64,000 nt of DNA from Dokdonella koreensis DS-123 (GTDB taxonomy: Bacteria; Pseudomonadota; Gammaproteobacteria; Xanthomonadales; Rhodanobacteraceae), in NCBI RefSeq assembly GCF_001632775.1, contig NZ_CP015249.1, positions 3,266,686 to 3,330,685 on the forward strand, given 5' to 3'. A model generated the notes under the pieces. It saw only the letters and a program-made list of their open reading frames with translations. It ran no database searches and was not told where the DNA came from. Numbering within the stretch: the stretch's first letter is position 1; each line of letters starts with the position of its first letter. Below, in pieces: positions 32,812 to 46,637 of this stretch. The translations under genes were made by a program, and so were the position numbers.

Positions 32812-34137
32812 GTGAAACCGACGACACCGATTGGCGGCGCCAGACCCCTTCTCGCCCTCGTGCTGCTGGCCGTGCCGCTGGCGGCCGGTGCCCAGACGGT
32901 GACGACGACGAACGTGCTGACGCAGGCGCCGCAGTTCAGCATCTACTCCGACGACCTGCCACCGCTCTACACCACGCCGCCCGGCATCGTCCTGCTGCGC
33001 GGCAATGAGTCCTGGTACACGCTGACGCTGCTGAGCGCGCAGCAGAAGGCGCAGCTCGGTGCGGACCTGGCCGCCAAGGTCACCAAGTTCGCCGGCTGCG
33101 ACGCCTTCGACCGCATCGAAAGCATCGTCTACCTGCCGAAGGCCGCCGGCGCCGTCCCCACCACCGCCGACATCCCGCGCACGATCGAGATCGCGCGCTT
33201 CATGACGACGTTCAGCACCTACAACCGCGACAGCAATCCGTCGCCGTACGTGTCGCCGCTGATGGACGTCAGCGCCTACGCACCGCACCTGGCCGATCCG
33301 ACGCAGGACATCTGGGTCGGCTTCGCCGGCGGCTCCTACCCGACCTACCCTAATGGATCGGGCACCTACAACCCGTGCTGGACCAACGCCGGTGCCCAGG
33401 TGGCGAACCTGCCGCTCGCGCCGTATCCGCCGGGCCTGACCACCGAGGAGGCCCAGGCGATCTTCGCGCGCACCGGCTTCAGCTTCTCGCTGGACCTGCT
33501 CTCCACGCAACCGCCCGGCCCGCCCGCGCCCGGCCCCGCGGTGCGCGCCGCGCTCAACGCGCCGACCGGCCCTGCCTCCGGCGCGTCGCTGACGATCGCC
33601 GGCACGCTCGACGTGCCCGACCCGGGCGACGGCAGCACCACCGTCGACGGCACGCTGCATCTGATCGTCACCACGCACGGCGGCAACTCCGAGTACGGCT
33701 TCAGCACCGGCAACACCGTGCAGGTCAACGGCGCTCCGGTCGGCGACGCGTTCAGCACGCAGACCAATTGCAATGCGTTCGTCGGTACCGCGATCAATCC
33801 GCTCAACGGCTCGATCAGTTCCGGCACCGTCGGCGCCAATCCGACCAACCCGCGCAACTGGTGCCCGGGCGGCCCGGTGCGCACCACCGTGGCCAATCCC
33901 GGCACCACCAACCCGACCGACGCCAACCCCGGCGTGCCGGTGCGTTCCAACCGCTTCCACAGCGTGCGGCTCAACGTCGGCGCCAACCCCGTCCAGCTCG
34001 ACCTCGGTCCGTTCGTGACGCGCTTCGGCGGGCCCTACGATCCCGGCTGCGGCAACTGCTACCCGACCTCGATCGTGTTCGTGCCGGTGATCGACGCGCT
34101 GTTCGACGACGACTTCGAGGCCGCCGGACGCCCCTAG
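32812..34137 (+). CDS. Secreted protein of unknown function with C-terminal LFDDDFE tag
   Basis: A 441-residue exported protein. The GTG start has TGAGGAG upstream and a good signal peptide (to about AGAQ, residue 28). A beta-rich N-terminal part includes SIYSDDLPPLY and RGNESWYTLTLLSAQQKAQ. It has paired cysteines (CDAF, NPCW, NCNAF, WCPGG, CGNC). After a Pro-rich linker (PPGPPAPGPAV) comes a second beta-sandwich-like half. The last residues are LFDDDFEAAGRP, matching the tag on other secreted proteins here. No catalytic motif was recognised. Confidence 0.7.
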   Translation: MKPTTPIGGARPLLALVLLAVPLAAGAQTVTTTNVLTQAPQFSIYSDDLPPLYTTPPGIVLLRGNESWYTLTLLSAQQKAQLGADLAAKVTKFAGCDAFDRIESIVYLPKAAGAVPTTADIPRTIEIARFMTTFSTYNRDSNPSPYVSPLMDVSAYAPHLADPTQDIWVGFAGGSYPTYPNGSGTYNPCWTNAGAQVANLPLAPYPPGLTTEEAQAIFARTGFSFSLDLLSTQPPGPPAPGPAVRAALNAPTGPASGASLTIAGTLDVPDPGDGSTTVDGTLHLIVTTHGGNSEYGFSTGNTVQVNGAPVGDAFSTQTNCNAFVGTAINPLNGSISSGTVGANPTNPRNWCPGGPVRTTVANPGTTNPTDANPGVPVRSNRFHSVRLNVGANPVQLDLGPFVTRFGGPYDPGCGNCYPTSIVFVPVIDALFDDDFEAAGRP

Positions 34138-34168: not shown

Positions 34169-34969
34169 TCAGAACCCGCGCGAGAGGCCGAAGAACACCG
34201 ACGCGGTACCCTTGGCGTCCGCATCGATCAACGGACTGTCCTTGATCTCGTCGGGCAGGCTGCTGTACTTGACCGAGGCCAGCAGCGACCACTTCTGGCC
34301 GATCGGCCGGAAGTAGTTGAAGCCGACATGGCCGATCGCGACCGAGCCGGGCTTGTAGTCGACGACGCCGCGCGCGACTTCCTTGTCGAGCGTGCCGTAG
34401 TAGTAGTTCGCCATGTCCTTGGACTGCCAGGTGGCGCCCACGATCGGCGTCAACTGGCCCTGGCCGAGCGCGAACGGGTAGCCGTACTGGATCGAGACCT
34501 CCTGCCCGCCGCTGGTGTCGGTCGCGTCGGCCAGCAGCTCGACCTCCAGCTCGCCGGCGCGGCCGCTCCACTTCATGCCCAGGCCGAGGTCGAACGCGAG
34601 GTCGCGGTCTTCCAGCAGCCGGTAGTCGACGCCGTTGTCGGCCAGTTCGCGCCGGCCGAGGTCCTTGACGTCGAAGCCGTCGAAGCGGAGCTTTCCGATC
34701 GCGGCCAGCTCGAACGACTCGCTGCTGACGAAACGCCAGCCGGCGGTGATGCCGCGGAAGTAGAAGCGCTCGCCTTCGTAGGTCACCAGCGGGACCGGCA
34801 TCACCCGCGTGCCCTCGCCGGCAAACGGGCTGTCCGAGACCATCGCGGCGATACCCAGGCTCCAGCGCGGCGGGTGTTGTTCCGCCGGCACCTCGTCGGC
34901 CGCGCCCGGCTGGGCGACGGCGTTGAGCGACAAGCCGGACAGCACGAGGGACCACAGTCGTTTCTTCAT
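34169..34969 (-). CDS. MipA/OmpV family outer membrane protein
   Basis: A 266-residue outer membrane beta-barrel protein of the MipA/OmpV family, variously linked to murein-enzyme scaffolding and to antimicrobial resistance. The start MKKRLWSLVLSGLSLNAVAQ gives a signal peptide. Family features include RWSLGIAAMVSDSPF, PVPLVTYEGERFYFRG and a terminal strand (ASVFFGLSRGF). Its promoter carries the same 11-bp-spaced TGTCG repeat as the RND pump operon, so the neighbouring two-component system probably regulates both. Confidence 0.88.
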   Translation of the reverse strand: MKKRLWSLVLSGLSLNAVAQPGAADEVPAEQHPPRWSLGIAAMVSDSPFAGEGTRVMPVPLVTYEGERFYFRGITAGWRFVSSESFELAAIGKLRFDGFDVKDLGRRELADNGVDYRLLEDRDLAFDLGLGMKWSGRAGELEVELLADATDTSGGQEVSIQYGYPFALGQGQLTPIVGATWQSKDMANYYYGTLDKEVARGVVDYKPGSVAIGHVGFNYFRPIGQKWSLLASVKYSSLPDEIKDSPLIDADAKGTASVFFGLSRGF

Positions 34970-35073
34970 GGGACGCCTGACCTCATCGAGTGGGGGAATG
35001 TCATGTGCGTCCACCGGCGCGCACCCGTGCGGCGGGTGCGGTGGCAAACGTCCACCCCAGCATGAATCGGTCG

Positions 35074-35089
35074 TGTCGCCGAAATGTCG
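35074..35089 (-). promoter_or_regulatory. Probable response-regulator site upstream of mipA-like gene
   Basis: On the plus strand the site reads TGTCGCCGAAATGTCG, two TGTCG half-sites exactly 11 bp apart. It lies about 105-120 bp upstream of the mipA-like start, and 14 of its 16 bases match the site before the pump operon (41884-41899). OmpR-family regulators bind direct repeats with this spacing. Confidence 0.6.
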
Positions 35090-35124
35090 TGTCCCGCACC
35101 GGCCGCCAGCCGGTGGTCCGCCGC

Positions 35125-36468
35125 CTACGGCGTGATGACGCTGGCGGTCACGTCGAGGCGGGCACGCGTGCCCGACAGCCCGCCCGGTTCGATCGCCAGC
35201 GTCCAGCCGAAGCGATCGCAGATGCGGCCGATCAGGAACAGTCCCAGGCCCTGCCCGCGCACCGGTGCGGCCTGCCGCAGGCTGTCGCGATAGCGCCGCG
35301 CGGCCTCGACCGGATCGAACCCGCTGCCGGAATCGGCGACGGTGACCACACCCTCGCTCAGCGCGATCTCGACATAGCCCGCCTCGGTGCTCTCTATCGC
35401 GTTGCGCAGCAGGTTGCTGACGGCGATGCGCACGATCGCCTCCGGCACGGCGATGAAGGTGGGCACCAGCTCGCCCAGCTCCAACCGCGCCGGTTTCCCG
35501 TGCAGCAGGTGCTCGTGGTCGCGCGCCAGGCGCGGCAGCAGCTCGTGCAGCACGGTGACGTCCGCCGGCTCGGTCGCAGGGTCGGGCTCGCGCGCCAGGT
35601 ACAGCAGGGCGACCATCGTCTCGGACAGGTCCGCCACCGCGTGCTCGATGCGGCCGAGCACCGGCCGCGACGCCTCCGGCAGCGGCATCTGCCCGAGCAC
35701 GTCGGCGGCGCCGGCGATCACCGCGATCGGCGTGCGGAACTCGTGGCTGGCCTGGTCGAGCAGGCTGCGCTCGCGCGCGATGAACTGCGCCACGCGCTCC
35801 AGGTGCGCATTGCTGGCCTGCGCGATGACCTGGATCTCCTCGCGCGGGTACGTCGTCGGCAGCCGCGCCGCGGTGTCGCTGGGGTCGATCGCCTGCATGC
35901 GCTCGGCCAGGTCGCGCACCGGCCGCACCAGGTTGGCGTGCAGCCAGCCGATGACCCCCGCGATCAGTACGGCGAAGACGACGGCCCAGCCGGTGCTGAG
36001 CAGGGAGTCGTGGTTCTGCTGGTCCTCCAGCGCCTGGATGTCGAGCGTGGTGACCAGCCGGCCGTGCGGCAGATCGGCGACCCGCGCATGGAAGCTGCTC
36101 TCGCCGGGAAAGTCGTCGAGCGATTGGAACGAACCGAAAAAGCCGCTCTCGGTCGAGTAGTAGCCGGCCGGCAGATCGGCCAGATACGCCGGATCCGGCA
36201 AGGTGCTGCCGCCTTCGGCCAGGTACCAGGACCGGACCAGTCCGCGCTGCGGCAGCGAAGCGCCCTGCCCCTGCTCGACGCGCGCGACTTGGTCGGCCGA
36301 CAGCGACGCCAGCAAGTCGGCCCAGAAGCGGTGCTCGATCAGGCGCTGGCTGCTGAAGCTCTGCGCCGCCAGCGCCGCCAGCATGGTCAGCCCGAATACG
36401 ACCAGCGCGGCGCTGATCCAGGCGTGGATGCCGCGCGACCGGCCCGGCGGGACGTCGCGCCTAGCCAT
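35125..36468 (-). CDS. Sensor histidine kinase of the pump operon
   Basis: A 447-residue membrane kinase. Helix 1 (about 16-37) and helix 2 (about 157-177) flank a periplasmic sensor of about 120 residues with no named domain. A HAMP-like segment follows (LVRPVRDLAERMQAID). The phosphoacceptor is His242 (LDQASHEFRTPIAV). N-box SNLLRNAIES, G1 DSGSGFD and G2 GQGLGLFLIG are intact. Its start overlaps the response-regulator stop by 8 nt. It presumably senses an envelope or antimicrobial signal and controls the RND pump and MipA. Confidence 0.92.
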   Translation of the reverse strand: MARRDVPPGRSRGIHAWISAALVVFGLTMLAALAAQSFSSQRLIEHRFWADLLASLSADQVARVEQGQGASLPQRGLVRSWYLAEGGSTLPDPAYLADLPAGYYSTESGFFGSFQSLDDFPGESSFHARVADLPHGRLVTTLDIQALEDQQNHDSLLSTGWAVVFAVLIAGVIGWLHANLVRPVRDLAERMQAIDPSDTAARLPTTYPREEIQVIAQASNAHLERVAQFIARERSLLDQASHEFRTPIAVIAGAADVLGQMPLPEASRPVLGRIEHAVADLSETMVALLYLAREPDPATEPADVTVLHELLPRLARDHEHLLHGKPARLELGELVPTFIAVPEAIVRIAVSNLLRNAIESTEAGYVEIALSEGVVTVADSGSGFDPVEAARRYRDSLRQAAPVRGQGLGLFLIGRICDRFGWTLAIEPGGLSGTRARLDVTASVITP

Positions 36469-37156
36469 GTTCGCAGAGCCTGTAGCCGGAGCCCGGCACG
36501 GTGTACAGCAGCGGCGGCTCCGTGTCGCGCTGGATCGCACGGCGCAGCACGTGCATGTGCGAGCGCAACAGGTCCGTCGCCGGCACGGCGTCGCCCCAGG
36601 CCGCGCGCTCCAATCGCACCCGCGTGACGACGCGCGGGCTCTCGCGCATCAGCAGCTCCAACAGGTGCCGTCCGGTGCGGCTCAGCGCGATCGGCCGTCC
36701 GGCGCGCCGGATTTCCAGCGTACCGAGGTGGAACGTGAGATCACCCACCGTGAGCACGTCCTCCGGCGCAACCGACTGCCGCAGGCGCGCCACCAGCGAC
36801 CGCAGGCGCACCTCGATCTCGGGCAGGGCGACCGGCTTGACCAGGTAGTCGTCCAGGCCCGCCTCGAAGCCGTCGATCTTGTCGGCCAGCTGGTCGCGTG
36901 CCGTCAGCATGATCACCGGTACGCGCTGCTTCGCCTCGCCGCGCAGCTTGCGCAGCACGGTCAGGCCGTCGAGGCGCGGCAGGTTCCAGTCGAGCACGAT
37001 CGCGTCGTAGTCCCGGGTCGCGGCCAGGTGCAGGCCGGACAGCCCGTCGGGTGCGGCATCCAGGCTGTGTCCGCAGCCTTCCAGGTAGTCGTAGAGGTTC
37101 GCCGCGAGCTGCGCGTTGTCCTCGATGATCAGGATCGAGAGGGGATGCGTGCTCAT
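36461..37156 (-). CDS. OmpR-family response regulator of the pump operon
   Basis: A 231-residue two-domain regulator. The receiver has acidic residues Glu12-Asp13, phosphoacceptor Asp56 (IVLDWNLPR), a Thr switch (MLTARD) and Lys107 (VKP). The C-terminal winged helix ends with the typical YTVPGSGYRLCE hairpin. It is fourth in the order MFP, RND, small ORF, RR, HK. Its ATG overlaps the stop of the small ORF. Its likely sites are the TGTCG direct repeats at 41884 and 35074. Confidence 0.93.
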   Translation of the reverse strand: MSTHPLSILIIEDNAQLAANLYDYLEGCGHSLDAAPDGLSGLHLAATRDYDAIVLDWNLPRLDGLTVLRKLRGEAKQRVPVIMLTARDQLADKIDGFEAGLDDYLVKPVALPEIEVRLRSLVARLRQSVAPEDVLTVGDLTFHLGTLEIRRAGRPIALSRTGRHLLELLMRESPRVVTRVRLERAAWGDAVPATDLLRSHMHVLRRAIQRDTEPPLLYTVPGSGYRLCEHG

Positions 37157-37476
37157 GGTTCGTCCGCCGATGGGCGCGCGGCCGGGCCGCATGAAGGATT
37201 GCACGCGCCATCGCCGGGCACGACGCCGGCGGCGCGCGCGATCCACTCTAGCATGGCCCTTGCGCGCGCGAAGGCGAGGCCGAGGTCCTGCTCGGGCGTC
37301 GCGCGCGGCAGCCGGCGGCCGCTGTCCGCCGCGCAGGATTCTCGATCGACGCTGCCGGCAGCGACGCCCGCAGCGCGCCGTTCGGCCGCATCCGGCGGCG
37401 TGCCCGGCGCGGCGCGCTCCGGCGCATCCCGGTCACGTGCCGGGGCCGGTGCGGTCTGCCCGGGGATCGGTGCCAT
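37153..37476 (-). CDS. Small hypothetical protein between RND pump and response regulator
   Basis: A 107-residue hydrophilic protein rich in Ala, Pro, Arg and Asp. Support comes from position: the ATG lies 4 nt after the RND stop and the TGA overlaps the regulator start (ATGA), so the five-gene operon has almost no untranslated gaps. A short helical segment (EQDLGLAFARARAMLEWIARAAG) is the only structured-looking part. No family was recognised. It could merely be a coupling ORF that feeds ribosomes to the regulator gene. Confidence 0.5.
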   Translation of the reverse strand: MAPIPGQTAPAPARDRDAPERAAPGTPPDAAERRAAGVAAGSVDRESCAADSGRRLPRATPEQDLGLAFARARAMLEWIARAAGVVPGDGACNPSCGPAARPSADEP

Positions 37477-37479
37477 GCC

Positions 37480-40400
37480 TTATACCTCGACCGCGTAGCC
37501 GCCGACTGCGCCATCCAGGCGCTGCCGCATCGAGACGCGCGCATACCCTACCAGGTCGTCCACCAGGCTGTAGACGACCGGGATCACCAGCAGGCACAGC
37601 ACGGTCGACGTCACGAGCCCGCCGATCACGACGATCGCCATCGGCGCGCGGAAGCTCGGATCGGCGCCGATGCCGAGCGCGACCGGCAGCATGCCGGCCC
37701 CCATCGCGATCGTCGTCATGACGATCGGCCGGGCGCGCTTGCGGCAGGCATCGACGATCGCGCACCGGCGGCCCTTGCCGTGGTCCCGGCGGGCGATGAC
37801 GACGTAGTCCACCAGCAGGATCGCGTTCTTGGTGGTGATGCCCATCAGCATGATCAAGCCGATCATCGACGGCATCGACAGGCTGGCACCGGTCACCCAC
37901 AGCGCAAGGAACGCGCCCGGGATCGACAGCACCAGCGCCACCAGCACGGTCAACGGCTGCGCGAAGTCCTTCAGCAGCAGCACCAGCACCATGTACACGC
38001 ACAGCACGCCCGCGGCCATCGCCAGCAAGAAGCCCCGGGCCAGCTCGCCCATGGCTTCCGCGTCGCCGGTGGCGGCCTGGACGATGCCGTGCGGCAGGTT
38101 GCGCAGGCTCGGCAGCGCCGCCGCCGCACGCTCGACGTCGCCCAGCGGGCGGCCGTTGAGCTCCACCTTGAGGGTGACGTTGCGCTGGCGGTCGTAGCGC
38201 GTCAGCTCGGACGGGCCGCTGGCGATCGCCAGGTCCGCGACGCTCTCCAGCGGCACCGGCCCGCGCGCGCCGGGTACCGGCAGCCGTCGCAGCACGTCCA
38301 GGTCGTCGCGGCCCCGATCGGCCAGCCGTACCACCACCGGCACCTGGCGCTCACCGAGATTCAGTTTGGCGAGGGCCTGGTCGTAGTCGCCCGCGGTGGC
38401 GATCCGCAGCGTCTCGGCGATCGCCGCCGAGGTGACGCCGAGGTCCGCGGCGCGTGCGAAATCGGGCTGGACGACCAGCTCCGGCCGCACCAGGCTGGCC
38501 GAAGAGGTCACCGCGCCGACACCGGGAATCCCGCGCAGCTCGCGCTCGACGCGGCCGGCATGACGCGCCAGCAATGCCCCGTCCTCCGAGGCCAGCACCA
38601 GCTGGTAGCCCTCGCTGTCGCCACCGGCGCCCACGCCGATCCGCACGCCCGGCAGCACCGACAGCGCCTGCCGCAGCGTGGCCTCGATCATCGCCCGGGT
38701 CAGGCCGTCGCGCTGGCCGCGCGGTACCAGGTTCACGGTGAGCACGGCCGTCGTCACGCTCGCGACCGGCGCCGCCTCGTCCGGATCGCCGCTGCCACCG
38801 CTGCCGCCACCGACGGCGGTGTAGACCGAGGTCACGTACGGAAGCGCACCGATCCGCGCGCGCGCCTGCTCGGCGACGGCCAGCGTATCGCCCAGCCGGC
38901 TGCCCGGCGGCAGCGCGACGGTCACCTGCGTATGGTCGCCGTCATCAGCCGGAATGAACTCGCCGGGCAGCTGCGTGGCGACGAGCAGGCCGAGGGCCAC
39001 CAGCAGCGCGGCCGTGCCGATCGTCAGCGCGCGATGGCGCAGGCACGTCCGCACGATCCACAGGTACCGCGCCAGCCAGCGCGGCGCGGCCGGCGGGCGC
39101 TGCGGCGCCGCCAGGAAATACGCCGCCAGCGTCGGCGTCAGCATGCGGGCGACCACCAGCGAGAAGAACACCGCCACCGCCGCGGTCCAACCGAACTGCA
39201 CGAAGTACTGGCCGACCGTCCCGCCCATCAGCGACGTCGGCACGAACACCGCGATCAGCGTGAACGTGGTCGCGATCACCGCCAGCCCGATCTCGTCGGC
39301 CGCCTCCGTCGCCGCGCGCAGCGGTGTCTTGCCCATCCGCCGGTGCCGCTCGATGTTCTCGATCTCGACGATCGCATCGTCCACCAGCACGCCGATCACC
39401 AGCGACAGCGACAGCAGCGAGACCGTGTTCAGCGTGAAGCCCAGCAGGTGCATGACCGCGAACGTCGGGATCGCCGACAGCGGCAGCGCCACCGCGGCGA
39501 TCAGTGTCGCCCGCCAGTCGCGCAGGAACCCCAACACCACCAGCACCGCCAGCGCAGCGCCCTCGACCATCAGCATCATCGAGCCGCGGTAGTTCTCGGC
39601 GATCGGGCCGACGTGGTCGACCGCCTCGGCGAACGCGATATCCGGATGCGCGGCCGCCAGTTCCGCGATCGTGGCGCGCGCGGCCGCGGCCACCTCCAGC
39701 TCGCCGGCACCGCGCGCACGCAGCACCTCGAACGCCACCACCGGCCTGCCGTCCATCAGCGCGGCCGCACGCGGCTCCGCCGTGGTATCCGACACCGTCG
39801 CGACCTGGGCCAGGCGAATCCGGCGCCCGTCGCCCAGCGCCAGATCCAGGTTCTCGATTGCCTGCGCGGATGCCACCGTGCCCAGCGTGCGCACCGACTG
39901 CTCGGCCCCGCCGAGCGTGACGCGCCCGCCGGACGCCTCCTGCTGCAGCGCGCGCAACTGCCGGGAGATGTCGGCCGCGCCGGCGTTCAGCGCCAGCAGC
40001 CGCTGCGGGTCGAGCGCGACGCGGATCTCGCGGTCCAAGCCGCCGACGCGCGACACCGCGCCGATGCCCGGCACCGCCAGCAGCCGCCGCGTGACCTGGC
40101 CGTCGACGAACCACGACAGCGCCTCGTCGTCGCGCCGTGTCGAGGACACCGTGTAGATCGTGACTGGTGTGCTGGCCAGCTCGAGCTTTTCGATCACCGG
40201 GTCCTGCAGGTCTGCCGGCAGCCGGGCGCGCGTGCGTGCCACCGCGTCGCGCACGTCGTCCATCGCCGCCTGCACCGGCGTGCCGACGCGGAACTCCGCC
40301 GTGATGCGCGCTGTGCCGTCGCTCAACACGCTGGTGAGGTGCTTGAGGCCCTGCACGTTCGCCAGCGCGTCCTCGATCTTGCGCGCCACGTCGTTCTCCA

Positions 40401-40581
40401 GCTGCGCCGGCGAGGCACCCGGCAGCACCGCGGTGACCGTGACCACGGGGAAGTCGATGTCCGGGAAGTTCTGCACCTTCATCGCCGCGAAGCCCGCCAG
40501 CCCCGCCAGCGTCAGCAGGATGAAAAGCAGCGTGACGGCGACCGGGTTGCGGATCGACCAGGCCGAGACGTTGAGGTTCAC
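37480..40581 (-). CDS. RND efflux transporter permease (HAE-1 type)
   Basis: A 1033-residue inner membrane proton antiporter of the AcrB/MexB class. It starts MNLNVSAWSIRNPVAVTLLF and carries PNFPDIDFP-like docking text (VQNFPDIDFPVV), two large periplasmic loops and twelve membrane helices. The proton-relay pair is in VLVDDAIVEIEN at about residue 400. The length is typical. The ATG overlaps the adaptor-gene stop. No TolC-type outer membrane gene lies in the operon, so it probably borrows one encoded elsewhere. Confidence 0.95.
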   Translation of the reverse strand: MNLNVSAWSIRNPVAVTLLFILLTLAGLAGFAAMKVQNFPDIDFPVVTVTAVLPGASPAQLENDVARKIEDALANVQGLKHLTSVLSDGTARITAEFRVGTPVQAAMDDVRDAVARTRARLPADLQDPVIEKLELASTPVTIYTVSSTRRDDEALSWFVDGQVTRRLLAVPGIGAVSRVGGLDREIRVALDPQRLLALNAGAADISRQLRALQQEASGGRVTLGGAEQSVRTLGTVASAQAIENLDLALGDGRRIRLAQVATVSDTTAEPRAAALMDGRPVVAFEVLRARGAGELEVAAAARATIAELAAAHPDIAFAEAVDHVGPIAENYRGSMMLMVEGAALAVLVVLGFLRDWRATLIAAVALPLSAIPTFAVMHLLGFTLNTVSLLSLSLVIGVLVDDAIVEIENIERHRRMGKTPLRAATEAADEIGLAVIATTFTLIAVFVPTSLMGGTVGQYFVQFGWTAAVAVFFSLVVARMLTPTLAAYFLAAPQRPPAAPRWLARYLWIVRTCLRHRALTIGTAALLVALGLLVATQLPGEFIPADDGDHTQVTVALPPGSRLGDTLAVAEQARARIGALPYVTSVYTAVGGGSGGSGDPDEAAPVASVTTAVLTVNLVPRGQRDGLTRAMIEATLRQALSVLPGVRIGVGAGGDSEGYQLVLASEDGALLARHAGRVERELRGIPGVGAVTSSASLVRPELVVQPDFARAADLGVTSAAIAETLRIATAGDYDQALAKLNLGERQVPVVVRLADRGRDDLDVLRRLPVPGARGPVPLESVADLAIASGPSELTRYDRQRNVTLKVELNGRPLGDVERAAAALPSLRNLPHGIVQAATGDAEAMGELARGFLLAMAAGVLCVYMVLVLLLKDFAQPLTVLVALVLSIPGAFLALWVTGASLSMPSMIGLIMLMGITTKNAILLVDYVVIARRDHGKGRRCAIVDACRKRARPIVMTTIAMGAGMLPVALGIGADPSFRAPMAIVVIGGLVTSTVLCLLVIPVVYSLVDDLVGYARVSMRQRLDGAVGGYAVEV

Positions 40582-41777
40582 GGACTACTCCGCGGCGGTG
40601 CGGACCGCTCCGGCGGCGGCGCGTTCGATTCGGTCACGTCCGCGTCGGCCGTGCTCGACACCGGCACGGCGGCCGCACCCGGCCCCAGCTCGCCGACCAC
40701 GCGCACCGTGTCCCCCTCGCTCAGGAAGCCCAGACCCGCGGCGATGACCGGCTCCGACGCCGCGAGTCCCGCCGTGATCTCGATCCGGTCGTCGACCGAC
40801 CGGCCGACGTCCACCTTCTGCACGACCACGCGCGACGCGACACTCACGCGCATGACGGTGTGGAAGCCGTCGCGCAGCAGCACCGCGCTGCGTGGCAGCG
40901 TCAGCGCCCAGCGATCACCCACCGCGATATGGCCGCTGACGAACGCACCCGCACGCACCGCGCTGCCGCGCGGCAGGTCCGCATAGGCCAGGCCCGTATG
41001 CGTCGCCACGTCGATCACCGGCCCCAGCCTGCGCAGCGTGCCGTGGATCGGCGCGTGGCCCGGCAGGCTGATCGTCGCCGCCTGGCCGGGCGCGAGCGCA
41101 TCCAGGTCCGCCGCCGACACCGCCGCCCGCCATTCGAGGCGGCCATCGCGGATCAGGCGGAACAGCTCCTGCCCCGCAGTGACCACCGCCCCCACCGTCG
41201 CCGGCCGCGCCGTGATGACACCGTCGCTCGGCGCCAGCACGCGCGTCTGCGCCAGGCGCAGGCCGACGCGCCGCTCCACCGCCCGCGCCGCGTCCAGCCG
41301 CGCCCGCGCCGTCGCCGCGCCGGCCGCGTATTGCCCCACCTGCTGCGCGGCGATCGCGCCGGTGGCACCCAGCCGTCCCGCGCGGCGATGGTTGGTCTCG
41401 GCCTCCCCGGCCTCGGCCGCCGCCTGCGCGACCGCCGCGCGCACCTCCGCCAGCTCCGCCTCGATCGTGTCGGCCTTGAACAACGCCAGCACCTGGCCGC
41501 GCGTCACCGTATCGCCGACATTGACGCGCACCTCGGTCAGGCGCAGCCCGTCCGCCTCCGCGCCGACGCTCGCCTCCTGCCAGGCCACGACATGGCCCGT
41601 CGCCGACACGCGTACCGGCAGCACGCTCTCCTGTGGCCGGATCAGCGTCACCGACAGCACCGGTACCGGCGATGCGTCCACCCCGCCGTCGGCCTCGCGC
41701 GCCCGGCCCTGCCCGAACAGCGCGAGCGCAACAACGGCAAGCCCGGCGCAGGCCAGGGCGATCAAACCACGCTTCAT
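40578..41777 (-). CDS. RND efflux periplasmic adaptor (membrane fusion protein)
   Basis: A 399-residue HlyD-type adaptor that links the RND pump to an outer membrane channel. An N-terminal signal/anchor (GLIALACAGLAVVALALFG) is followed by the lipoyl half-motif EASVGAEADGLRLTEVRVNVGD, a coiled-coil hairpin rich in Ala and Glu (about 110-185), the second lipoyl half (RVLAPSDGVITARPA) and a beta-barrel domain. The ATG at 41777 (MKRGLIAL) was preferred to a GTG 18 nt upstream. It is first in the pump operon. Confidence 0.92.
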   Translation of the reverse strand: MKRGLIALACAGLAVVALALFGQGRAREADGGVDASPVPVLSVTLIRPQESVLPVRVSATGHVVAWQEASVGAEADGLRLTEVRVNVGDTVTRGQVLALFKADTIEAELAEVRAAVAQAAAEAGEAETNHRRAGRLGATGAIAAQQVGQYAAGAATARARLDAARAVERRVGLRLAQTRVLAPSDGVITARPATVGAVVTAGQELFRLIRDGRLEWRAAVSAADLDALAPGQAATISLPGHAPIHGTLRRLGPVIDVATHTGLAYADLPRGSAVRAGAFVSGHIAVGDRWALTLPRSAVLLRDGFHTVMRVSVASRVVVQKVDVGRSVDDRIEITAGLAASEPVIAAGLGFLSEGDTVRVVGELGPGAAAVPVSSTADADVTESNAPPPERSAPPRSSP

Positions 41778-41883
41778 GTCGCGACGGGACCTCACGGATC
41801 GGATGCGGGACGACCCGTCGCCGCCGGCGAGGGGGCAGGCTCGCCGTGGCGGCTTCGGGTCGGTGCCGATCGTGGGGCGGGGA

Positions 41884-41899
41884 TGTCGGTGAAATGTCG
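41884..41899 (-). promoter_or_regulatory. Probable response-regulator site upstream of the pump operon
   Basis: The plus strand reads TGTCGGTGAAATGTCG, a direct repeat of TGTCG with 11-bp period. It lies about 107-122 bp upstream of the adaptor start codon. Orientation and distance match the copy upstream of the mipA-like gene, and 14 of 16 bases are identical. Confidence 0.6.
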
Positions 41900-42106: not shown

Positions 42107-45100
42107 CTACGGGCCGACCGGCGCGACGTTGTCGCGGGCGTTCCGGTCGATGTAGGCGTTGTACGGGTCCACGCCGGCGTGGGTGGGCCTTGCGTCGGTG
42201 ACGAAGCGGAAGACCTGCGATCCGCTGCGCACCGGCTGCCGCTCGATGAGGATCACGCGCGCGCCGTCGAAGGCGCGGCTCCCCGGCTCGGCGGTGAACA
42301 GGCCCAGCTCGATGGCCTCGTCGAGGGGCGCGTCCTGCTCTGCGCCGCGACCGTCCGCATGGACCTTGCGCGCCTCCACCGGCACGGTCACGTCCCATCG
42401 CCCGTCGGCCCGCTGCACGGCCCGGGGCTGTGTGACCTTGAGGTCGTAGAGCGTGATCCGCTCGAACAGGTCGGTGATCAGCGCCTGCTGCTCGGGCGTG
42501 CGCGCTTCCTCGCGCAGCAGGGCGACCAGGTCCACCGAGCGCGGGTACGGCGGCGTCGTGAAGCGGTAGCGGTCGACGAAGCGCTTCAGCGCGCGGTTGA
42601 CCGCGTCCTCGCCGAGCCGTTGCTGGAGCAGGTACATCGCGAGCGCACCCTTTCCATAGGCGACGTGTTTCTGGCTGATCTCGACGCTGACGAGCGGCGC
42701 CTCCTCGATCACCTGGGTGCGGCGGCCGCTCAGGTAGCGGTCCAGCTGGAACTGCAGGAAACGGCGGATCCTGTCCTCCCCGTGGAGGCGCTTCATCACC
42801 ATCAGCGCGGAGTACTGCGCCAGCGTCTCGTACAGCAGGCCGGCGCCCTGCATCCGGGCCCCCAGGACCTGGTGCCCCCACCACTGGTGGGCGAGCTCGT
42901 GAGCGGTGACCATCGTGACCACGTCGATCGCGTCCGGGTCCTCCAGGTCCATCGCGAAGCCGGCCGTCTCCCCGAGCGGAATGGTGTTCGCAAAGGCCTG
43001 GGCGCCCGACCGGTAGGCGGGCGTCTCGACGATCCGCGCCTGGTCGAATTGGTAGGGACCGAAGGCCTGGCCGTAGTAGTCGATGGAGGCCTGCATCGCC
43101 GTCATCATGCGATCGACGTTCCAGGGGTGCGCAGGATGGAAGTAGATCGCGTGCTCGACGCCCGCGTGGACCTGCCGCCTGACGGCGTAGCGGCCCGACT
43201 GGATCGAGAAGTAGTTCTTGATCGGCGTGTCGGACACGAAGCGGACGATGCGGCGGCCGTTCTCGACCCGCTCCGACACCGGCTTGCCGGGGGCGATCGG
43301 GACCTGGTCGGCGGTGGTGGAGACGGTGATGTCCGCCGTGGTCCAGCCGACGTCGCCGCCGGGCAGGAGGTAGGTGGCCGCCACATCGTCCAGCCGCGGC
43401 AGCGGTTGCAGATCCGGCAGGCCGAGTGCGCGGCGCACCGCCGGCGACTCGATCAGGCCCACGTCGCTCATGCCGATCCGCGGCGTCAGCTCGAACGTGT
43501 CGAGGTCGGTGCCGTTCGGCGCCAGGCCGGTCTCGGTGCCGGCGGCCCGGAACCCGACCTGCTCGCGGCGGGTGTGGAAGGCGAGCGAGCGCGCCTCCCC
43601 CGGCTGCATCGGCGTGTCGAGGCGATAGATGCGGTAGCCGAACGCTGCGTCGTCGCGTTCCAACCGCGCCGCCGGGAATTCCAGCTCGACCAGCACGAGA
43701 TCGCGATTCACGAGGCGCACGTGCACCTGCTCGATCGGCGATCCGGTGTCGTTGACCAGCCGGTAGCGGCCGCGCACCTCGGCACGGATCGCCTCCGGGT
43801 ACAGCGCCACGTCCAGTTCCACGCGCCTGACCGCCGGTTGCGGCAAGCGCGCGTAGCGGAAGAAGCGCTTCTCGTACTCGGCCAGGTAGCGCTGCGTGTC
43901 CGCGTCGGTGCGGAAGTCGTTCAGGACCAGCGTGTTGTAGACGATCCAGGCGCCGCTCAGCACGCACAGCGCCGCTGCCCCGGCGGCCGCCAGCCCGGCC
44001 GGGCCGGCCAGCCGCGCGGGCATCCGGCGCAGCCGCGGCATCAGGCGCGCCTCGGCGCCGCGCGGCCAGAGCCGCTGTGCCGCCACCAGCAGCAGCACCG
44101 CCGTCGCGGCCCAGAACAGCCGGAACCACCAGGCCGCCTCCCAGAAGAGGCCGGCACCGGCCAGGTCGGACAGCGGTACGGCCGGCACGCTGCCGTACAC
44201 GAACAGCGGATGCTCCAGCCCCAGCGAGGGTCCGAAGAAGCGCAGCGCGAGGTACAGCACCATCACGCCCCAGCCGGCGTACTTGCTGGGGCTGAGCGCC
44301 TGGACGAACACCGCCAGCGCCGCGATCAGCAGCGCGTCCACCGCGCCCGGCAGCAGATACCAGAGCAGGTAGCCGCCGGGCGCGAGGTCCACGCCGCCCC
44401 ACAGCAGCTGCACGGCCATGCCGACCGCCGCGCCGACGAGCAGCGTCGAGAACAGCACCAGCGCCAGCCCGAGCACCTTCGGCAGCATCAGGGACCACGC
44501 CGGGAGCGCCGTCGCGTCGATGATCTCGTGCATCCGGCGTTCGCGCTCGCGCCACACCAGCTCGCCGCCGTAGTAGGTGGCGATGACGACCAGGAGCGTC
44601 TCGAAGCTGGCCCCGATGATCGGTACGGACACCGACGTCAGCGGACGGAGCGCCGCGCCGACCCAGCCCGACGCGGTCAACAGGTTCGCGAGCGTGACCA
44701 CGCAGGCGACGAGCAGGAGGATCAGGAACAGCGAGCTGCCGAGGATGTAACGCGCCTCCATCGCGGCGCGTGCGACGAACTGCGTCCGCGCGGTACGGCC
44801 ATCGAAGCGTGGCTCCGCCAGCCGCGCGAAGCGCGCGCCTGTGCCGGCCTCGCAGGACGACACGACCGGCGCACCCCGTCGATGCAGCCGGCGTTGCCGG
44901 CGCCGCGACAGGCGCCGCTCCGCGAACCGGAACCGGTGCCAGGTCAACGCCAGCAGGGCGATCGACAGGCCCACCCACAGCAGCCGGCTCTGCAGCATCA
45001 GGGCCGTGATGGGAATCGCCCCGGCGTTGAGCTCCGCCGCCGTGTAGTAGCGCGATGTCGCCATGTAGGCCGACAGGCCGAGGGGATCGGCCAGCACGCG

Positions 45101-45712
45101 CAGGCCGGCGAGCTGCGGCTGCCCCTCCATCAGCCGCTGGGAGACCAGGTACAGGGCCAGCAGTAGCACCACCCCGACGAAGGTCCCGGCCGTCGAGCGC
45201 GTCGCGGTGGCCAGCGCGAACAGGATCGCGCAGATGATCAGCGCGTTCGGTAACGCGAACAGCCCGTAGCCGTACGCGAAGGCGGCGAGCCGGTGGGGCC
45301 CGAGCATCGTCGGGTCGGCGAACGGCATCAGCGTGCCGAGCCACTGGCCGGCGGTCGCGGCCGCCAGGAGGAGCGCAGCCACCGCGAAGGCGCCGAGAAA
45401 ACGGCCGAACAGGTAGCTCGCCTTGCTGATGCCCGTGGTGCGCAGGATCGGACCGAAGCCCGTCTGGTCGTCGCGCACGATGACGTTCGAGACGAAGGCC
45501 GCGCCGACGAACAGGAACACGAGCGACACCAGCAGGTGGGACACGATGATCGAATGCGGGCTGTTGTACAGCACGTTCCCGCCGCCGATGGTCAGGAGCT
45601 TCGCCACCGCCATGTCGACGAAGGCCCCCAGGAAGAGCGCCGCCGCAGACACGGCGAACAGCGGGCTGCGGACCTGGTAGCGGAATTCGAACGCCGCGAT
45701 CGTGCCGAGCAT
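42107..45712 (-). CDS. ABC-2 permease fused to an M1-family metallopeptidase
   Basis: A 1201-residue protein. The N-terminal 590 or so residues form two sets of membrane helices of ABC-2 type, separated by an Arg-rich cytoplasmic loop near residue 270 (RRLSRRRQRRLHRR). The C-terminal 570 or so residues form an M1 (gluzincin) peptidase domain: the zinc motif HELAHQWW at about 936-943 and the third ligand Glu in LLYETLAQYSA about 19 residues on. The peptidase domain should face the periplasm. Such fusions occur in several Proteobacteria and pair with an ABC ATPase, here 12 nt upstream. Substrate and purpose are unknown; peptide or bacteriocin handling is a guess. Confidence 0.88.
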   Translation of the reverse strand: MLGTIAAFEFRYQVRSPLFAVSAAALFLGAFVDMAVAKLLTIGGGNVLYNSPHSIIVSHLLVSLVFLFVGAAFVSNVIVRDDQTGFGPILRTTGISKASYLFGRFLGAFAVAALLLAAATAGQWLGTLMPFADPTMLGPHRLAAFAYGYGLFALPNALIICAILFALATATRSTAGTFVGVVLLLALYLVSQRLMEGQPQLAGLRVLADPLGLSAYMATSRYYTAAELNAGAIPITALMLQSRLLWVGLSIALLALTWHRFRFAERRLSRRRQRRLHRRGAPVVSSCEAGTGARFARLAEPRFDGRTARTQFVARAAMEARYILGSSLFLILLLVACVVTLANLLTASGWVGAALRPLTSVSVPIIGASFETLLVVIATYYGGELVWRERERRMHEIIDATALPAWSLMLPKVLGLALVLFSTLLVGAAVGMAVQLLWGGVDLAPGGYLLWYLLPGAVDALLIAALAVFVQALSPSKYAGWGVMVLYLALRFFGPSLGLEHPLFVYGSVPAVPLSDLAGAGLFWEAAWWFRLFWAATAVLLLVAAQRLWPRGAEARLMPRLRRMPARLAGPAGLAAAGAAALCVLSGAWIVYNTLVLNDFRTDADTQRYLAEYEKRFFRYARLPQPAVRRVELDVALYPEAIRAEVRGRYRLVNDTGSPIEQVHVRLVNRDLVLVELEFPAARLERDDAAFGYRIYRLDTPMQPGEARSLAFHTRREQVGFRAAGTETGLAPNGTDLDTFELTPRIGMSDVGLIESPAVRRALGLPDLQPLPRLDDVAATYLLPGGDVGWTTADITVSTTADQVPIAPGKPVSERVENGRRIVRFVSDTPIKNYFSIQSGRYAVRRQVHAGVEHAIYFHPAHPWNVDRMMTAMQASIDYYGQAFGPYQFDQARIVETPAYRSGAQAFANTIPLGETAGFAMDLEDPDAIDVVTMVTAHELAHQWWGHQVLGARMQGAGLLYETLAQYSALMVMKRLHGEDRIRRFLQFQLDRYLSGRRTQVIEEAPLVSVEISQKHVAYGKGALAMYLLQQRLGEDAVNRALKRFVDRYRFTTPPYPRSVDLVALLREEARTPEQQALITDLFERITLYDLKVTQPRAVQRADGRWDVTVPVEARKVHADGRGAEQDAPLDEAIELGLFTAEPGSRAFDGARVILIERQPVRSGSQVFRFVTDARPTHAGVDPYNAYIDRNARDNVAPVGP

Positions 45713-45724
45713 GTTCTTCGCGCC

Positions 45725-46603
45725 TCAGGCCGCGCGGCGGGCGTGCGCCAGGGTGCAGAAGTAGACGTCCTCCAGGTCGCCCTCGTGGGGCGTGAAGCCG
45801 TCGCCCGGGTCCGTATCGGAAAGCACGTGGACCATCGTTCGCCCGGCGGACAGGCGGGTCGAGACCACCGGGTGGCGCGCCTTGTAGCCCTCGAGCTCGG
45901 CCCGCTCGATCGTCTTCGTCCAGAGCCGGCCGCGCGTGCCGCGGATCAGCTCGAGCGGTGCGCCCTCCAGCTGGATGCGCCCGCCCGCGAGCACCGCCAT
46001 GCGCGGGCACAGGTCCGCCACGTCGCCGACGATGTGGGTCGAGAGGATGACGACCACGTTCTCGCCGATCTCCGCGAGCAGGTCGAGGAAGCGGTTGCGC
46101 TCCTCCGGGTCGAGGCCCGCCGTCGGCTCGTCGACGACGATGAGCCAGGGGTTGCCGATCAGCGCCTGGGCAATGCCGAAGCGCTGGCGCATGCCGCCCG
46201 ACAAGCCCGCCAGCGCCTTCTTGCGGACACCCCAGAGGTTGACCTGGTGCAGCAGGGCCTCGACCGTCTGCCGGCGCTCGGCCGCCACCCCGATGCCTTT
46301 CAGCGCGGCCATGTGATGGAGCATGTCGTAGGCCGAAACCCGCGGATAGACCCCGAAATCCTGCGGCAGGTAGCCCAGCCTGCGCCGCAGCCGCTGGGGT
46401 TCGGCGATCACGTCGATCTCCCCGAAACGGATGCTTCCTTCCGTTGGCACCTGCAACGTGGCGATCGTCCGCATCAGGGTCGACTTGCCGGCACCGTTCG
46501 GCCCCAGCAGCCCGTACATGCCCCGCGGGATCGACAGCGTCACCTGATCGAGCGCGCGCGTGCCGTTGCCGTAGACGTGGCTGAGGTGGGTGAGCTCGAG
46601 CAT
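45725..46603 (-). CDS. ABC transporter ATP-binding protein partnered with the M1-fused permease
   Basis: A 292-residue ATPase with Walker A GPNGAGKST (34-42), signature LSGGM (134-138) and Walker B LIVVDEP (154-160). The C-terminal region is that of ABC-2 exporters (EGDLEDVYFCTLAHARR). The ATG at 46603 has AGGGG seven bases upstream. It is the first gene of a two-gene operon with the permease-peptidase. A promoter-like AT-rich patch with an imperfect dyad lies about 35-55 nt upstream. Confidence 0.92.
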   Translation of the reverse strand: MLELTHLSHVYGNGTRALDQVTLSIPRGMYGLLGPNGAGKSTLMRTIATLQVPTEGSIRFGEIDVIAEPQRLRRRLGYLPQDFGVYPRVSAYDMLHHMAALKGIGVAAERRQTVEALLHQVNLWGVRKKALAGLSGGMRQRFGIAQALIGNPWLIVVDEPTAGLDPEERNRFLDLLAEIGENVVVILSTHIVGDVADLCPRMAVLAGGRIQLEGAPLELIRGTRGRLWTKTIERAELEGYKARHPVVSTRLSAGRTMVHVLSDTDPGDGFTPHEGDLEDVYFCTLAHARRAA

Positions 46604-46637
46604 GGGGCGCCCCTGGGACCAGTTCCGCGGCACACTG

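Follow-up and report, generated by a model that had tools for sequence, protein, structure and literature searches.

In the 64,000-nucleotide stretch of Dokdonella koreensis DS-123 DNA analysed here (the window), two near-identical direct-repeat boxes, one in front of a mipA-like gene and one in front of an RND adaptor gene, are best read as operators for an OmpR/PhoB-type response regulator whose gene lies between them. Bound as a tandem dimer, this regulator would activate both promoters in place of a -35 element and so control a private regulon for outer-membrane repair and efflux, a reading to which we assign a probability of roughly 85%. The features concerned are, by coordinate:

34169..34969, minus strand: mipA-like gene, MipA/OmpV outer-membrane family, 266 aa (Pfam MipA, 2.1e-43)
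35059..35064, minus strand: -10-like hexamer CATGCT of the predicted mipA promoter, 8 bp downstream of the box
35073..35089, minus strand: putative regulator box of the mipA promoter, CGACATTTCGGCGACAC, two half-sites with an 11-bp period; candidate operator
35125..36468, minus strand: sensor histidine kinase, 447 aa, with HAMP, HisKA and HATPase_c domains (domain search)
36461..37156, minus strand: response regulator, OmpR/PhoB-type, 231 aa (Response_reg 9.2e-25, Trans_reg_C 3.1e-15)
37480..40581, minus strand: RND efflux permease, 1033 aa (Pfam ACR_tran, 3.1e-218)
40578..41777, minus strand: RND periplasmic adaptor, 399 aa (NCBIfam RND_mfp, 4.8e-55, above cut-off)
41869..41874, minus strand: -10-like hexamer CACGAT of the predicted adaptor promoter, after an 8-bp gap
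41883..41899, minus strand: putative regulator box of the adaptor promoter, CGACATTTCACCGACAT; candidate operator

The gene cluster and its two boxes

Read along transcription, the order is adaptor, RND permease, regulator, kinase, box, mipA, with the adaptor as the first gene of the pump-regulator-kinase unit. At its 3' end the regulator gene overlaps the beginning of the kinase gene, and the four genes from adaptor to kinase would form a single operon transcript despite a 320-bp gap between the RND gene and the regulator gene. The regulator consists of a receiver and a C-terminal winged helix, the domain composition of the OmpR/PhoB family, and its solved homologues are KdpE, PrrA, PhoP and BasR at E<=1e-26; it scored below the NCBIfam cut-offs for both the PhoB equivalog (136.2 bits, cut-off 296.2) and TIGR01387, the heavy-metal CztR/SilR/CopR family (149.8 bits, cut-off 279.2). 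Beside its gene lies an intact kinase gene, as in a cognate pair: the phospho-acceptor His and the N and G boxes are present, and H242, N352/N356 and the G-box residues are conserved in 16 relatives. The extracytoplasmic sensor domain of the kinase (~residues 38-152) was modelled as mixed alpha/beta (pLDDT 82); no solved structure matched this domain significantly in a fold search (best E 0.15), and we therefore propose no ligand from structure. Structural matches to the full-length kinase model were to kinase cores only. The mipA product exceeds the Pfam MipA gathering score (149.5 bits vs 24.2), and its best NCBIfam match is OmpV-type, below cut-off.

The surroundings of the cluster (34169-41777) include a 441-aa protein (32812-34137, plus strand), encoded convergently with mipA and carrying a marginal match to the PNGase F C-terminal domain (E 9.7e-06), and a 1201-aa protein (42107-45712, minus strand) in which an ABC-2 type membrane domain is fused to an M1 peptidase domain. 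The fusion gene adjoins an ABC ATPase gene (45725-46633) and lies outside the regulon by motif.

A preliminary description of this DNA had pointed to matching TGTCG-N6-TGTCG direct repeats. Both are present, as TGTCGCCGAAATGTCG at 35074-35089 and TGTCGGTGAAATGTCG at 41884-41899, sharing one orientation and 14 of 16 bases. Their distances to the genes are nearly equal, as that description also held (box edge to ATG, 105 bp for mipA with its ATG at 34969 and 107 bp for the adaptor with its ATG at 41777), and the regulator (36461-37156) and kinase (35125-36468) are indeed encoded between them. The direction of reading had to be corrected: all cluster genes lie on the minus strand, so that the element reads CGACAT-N5-CGACA(T) along transcription. 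Within the window, chance would give 0.27 matches to the exact spaced pattern, and 1 of 100 shuffles reached two, making the signal a modest one without comparison to other genomes.

A putative composite promoter element

In an alignment of 33 sites from the window and its relatives, chosen by the box alone with the hexamer playing no part in selection, both half-sites are kept as an 11-bp direct repeat (CGACAT-N5-CGACA(T)), and a -10-like hexamer, NAYNNT, always follows 8 bp downstream. Position 2 of the hexamer (A) and position 6 (T) are invariant in 33/33 sites; these two positions are the most conserved pair of a bacterial -10. All 33 candidate operators show the direct repeat with a period of about 11 bp that marks operators of the OmpR/PhoB family. 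The earlier identification of this period as an OmpR-family trait agrees with the operators of PhoB (PMC3978041) and Mycobacterium tuberculosis PhoP (PMC4832192), each of which consists of 11-bp direct repeats.

Transcription is predicted to start at ~35052 (mipA) and ~41862 (adaptor), and the leaders computed from these predicted starts are 83 nt and 85 nt long. We found no consensus sigma-70 promoter across the region, as is expected if an activator stands in for the -35, and no good -35 hexamer that unaided polymerase could use. The box is placed in front of the -10, as PhoB operators are in class II activation. The phosphorylated regulator would bind CGACAT-N5-CGACA(T) as a head-to-tail dimer at the usual -35 position and recruit RNA polymerase to the weak -10 hexamer 8 bp downstream, in a PhoB-like activation. 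Consistent with a dedicated reader of the box, the recognition helix is DLLRSHM[HY]V[LI]RR in 18/18 regulators of the clade; in close paralogues the position of the Val is taken by N, E, D, S or G, and the regulator of a decayed cluster (G377) retains the Val.

The CAT of the hexamer is in phase with those of both half-sites (offsets 3, 14 and 25), so a degenerate third half-site is possible. This phasing, with the -10 hexamer starting where a third 11-bp repeat would, also fits a different action of the same regulator, namely repression by blocking polymerase at the core promoter, and the position of the box across the -35 is compatible with repression as well. A repressed promoter would have to be used by unaided polymerase, for which a good -35 hexamer is lacking, and a weak -10 at a constant distance of 8 bp is what PhoB-type activation would lead one to expect; we consider repression improbable and retain activation as the preferred reading.

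Occurrence in the genome and across the order

The genome scan proposed in the preliminary description gave a divided result. The literal TGTCG-N6-TGTCG, with 10 fixed bases, matched 11 times in the 4.45-Mb genome against 3 for a reversed control, so that these bases are insufficient alone, whereas CGACATTTCNNCGACA matched just twice, indicating that interior bases matter. Box plus -10 hexamer (31 bp) had two zero-mismatch matches genome-wide, both in this cluster, and the next-best match to this extended element has 2 mismatches and lies inside an ORF. Among candidates for further sites, a near-match at 1450017 was discarded as lying inside an ORF, and those at 4019812 and 2796316 were discarded since they differ by one box mismatch yet are absent among the composite-element matches. 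No box was found in the fetched flanks of this genome's lpxO and mlaA homologues, which are for this reason not claimed as targets here.

We then searched for the composite element, defined as CGACATT-N4-CGACAY-N8-SAYNNT (31 bp), in 399 genomes sampled evenly across the order, in 17 of which a related kinase was found (counted at E<=1e-60). The exact element occurred 23 times, 22 of them at the cluster and 1 elsewhere, with 0 occurrences of the reversed control. It was present in 14/17 genomes with the kinase vs 1/382 without (Fisher p ~4e-22; the pattern was tuned on the same loci, which makes its sensitivity partly circular but not its near-absence elsewhere), a distribution that supports the likely two-component regulon suggested at the outset. 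The untuned, window-derived 16-mer gave p ~2e-4 with the window's own genome excluded; both p-values overstate independence, as related genomes share ancestry. With one mismatch allowed, 15 kinase-bearing genomes yielded 29 matches, 28 of them no more than 12 kb from the kinase (control 0). None of 74 scorable non-orthologous adaptor-RND loci came within 2 mismatches of the box; the best match of one locus had 3 mismatches, and those of the others 4-7.

The full adaptor-RND-regulator-kinase-mipA order is kept at 4/80 adaptor-related loci (L021, a Lysobacter MAG; L022, Tahibacter soli; L023, Stenotrophomonas rhizophila; and L025, Stenotrophomonas sp.); in each of these, both promoters carry the box with at most one mismatch. 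Both boxes are conserved over two families whose flanks have otherwise diverged. Where the kinase is related at E<=1.5e-97, the cluster carries the element in 14/14 genomes; the box was not found at the clusters of two distant kinases (G049, G058) or at the decayed cluster of G377. G002 (L174) has an inverted, separated pump and boxes before the pump, mipA and the regulator gene; in G280 (L180), the regulator gene and an mlaA gene have boxes in front of them, with pump and mipA undetected near the regulator-kinase pair. The regulator gene's own box in these two rearranged clusters makes the box separable from the identity of the pump. A box precedes mlaA in three genomes (G280, L021 and G398) and lpxO in one (G213, where LpxO is the best NCBIfam match, below cut-off), and genus g58 has the order box-mipA-lpxO-regulator-kinase. 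Whichever cluster gene heads the transcription unit, be it adaptor, mipA, mlaA, lpxO or the regulator gene, the box is found there, and as far as these sequences tell, the box follows the regulator, not any single target.

An expanded cluster was seen at L181 (G310), which has a second kinase copy downstream and outer-membrane-factor-like and lpxO-like genes between the copies. The cluster is sporadic: G002 is the sole sampled relative within the window's genus that has it, and the window kinase is ~56% identical to the G002 copy vs 67-71% for several genomes of another family, which suggests horizontal spread of the cluster.

The same comparisons bear on whether the box is read by some other OmpR-family regulator of wide distribution, such as PhoB, ColR or a further paralogue, the neighbouring pair being incidental. 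The half-site CGACAT does resemble the core of the Pho box, G(T/A)CAT, and in some Stenotrophomonas-type genomes that lack the kinase, a similar repeat precedes a kinase-like gene. OmpR-type paralogues are, however, present in every sampled genome, yet the element occurs in 1 of the 382 that lack the kinase, and the box accompanies the regulator into rearranged clusters, standing even before the regulator gene itself. On the co-occurrence of element and kinase we reject PhoB and ColR as readers of the box, and hold this explanation in general to be more improbable still than repression. Coincidence in a GC-rich genome, or recent duplication of the sequence, is almost certainly not the origin of the two sites: the one shuffle in 100 with two matches and the 11 genomic matches of the literal pattern speak for such an origin, but conservation at both promoters in two families with otherwise diverged flanks, and zero matches for control patterns, already contradict it.

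The similar repeat of the Stenotrophomonas-type genomes (L162-L171, genus g38, all without this kinase), CGACATTTCTCCGACA, lies at ~1501-1516, upstream of a small kinase-like gene with APH/RIO-type Pfam matches, and may be read by another regulator.

Proposed regulon and its parallels

From these comparisons we strongly infer that the two boxes define a regulon of the cluster regulator. Activation at the adaptor promoter would drive adaptor, RND permease, regulator and kinase, with read-through giving positive autoregulation, a step suggested by most clusters, in which regulator and kinase follow the pump and lack a box to themselves; the mipA-promoter box would drive mipA. What the sequences show directly is the sites, how they are conserved and spaced, and their co-occurrence with the kinase; binding, activation over repression, the operon transcript and the signal are what we infer in this scheme. 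The regulon would be private to the cluster, its members across related genomes being the RND pump, MipA/OmpV, an LpxO-like protein (lipid-A hydroxylase-like) and MlaA (a phospholipid-asymmetry lipoprotein). These target identities indicate that the output is probably outer-membrane repair and efflux upon an envelope-damaging condition, and in all likelihood the cluster works as a compact, self-contained switch of familiar type that responds to envelope stress. We advance more tentatively, as a doubtful extension, a hitherto undescribed mobile envelope-stress module that carries its entire regulon and a near-private box, with MipA as a co-sensor feeding back on the kinase.

Searches of the open-access literature returned nothing relevant on the motif letters or on combinations of LpxO, MipA, MlaA or Lysobacter with two-component systems; the regulator is apparently undescribed, while the kind of system is already familiar. 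The analysis provides a complete prediction for such a regulator, comprising operator, two promoters, starts and target list, in which one local circuit would link lipid-A hydroxylation, lipid asymmetry, an OmpV-type protein and efflux. It also offers a natural test case for MipA proteins as co-sensors outside Pseudomonas, and a private regulon whose box tracks its genes through rearrangements makes a clean case for regulator specificity and for operators travelling with their regulator.

The nearest functional parallel appears to be ParRS-MipBA-MexXY of P. aeruginosa, in which an OmpR-type pair controls an RND pump and a MipA/OmpV protein via a shared promoter box (PMC10936184). As there, a conserved box is common to the mipA and RND pump promoters here, a likeness in gene content and in the sharing of a box. 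In the ParRS locus, the mip genes adjoin the regulator pair and the pump genes lie elsewhere, whereas here the pump genes are clustered together with regulator, kinase and mipA; ParRS also controls arn, pmrAB and oprD, unlike the present system, for which no off-cluster sites were found. A polymyxin response was shown for ParRS, and MipA of P. aeruginosa has been proposed as a polymyxin co-sensor (PMC10936184).

At the level of the operator, the box resembles that of PhoB, which comprises two 11-bp direct repeats in 22 bp (PMC3978041), but has a different half-site, and the NCBIfam PhoB match of the regulator is below cut-off. M. tuberculosis PhoP likewise binds direct repeats of strict 11-bp period as a head-to-tail tandem dimer (PMC4832192), although half-site, organism and regulon differ. 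Finally, BesRS of Burkholderia thailandensis is, like the pair proposed here, concerned with envelope disturbance, and its regulon includes MipA/OmpV and an efflux system; unlike the cluster-bound regulon proposed above, that of BesRS is broad and genome-scattered and includes a beta-lactamase gene (PMC9426598).
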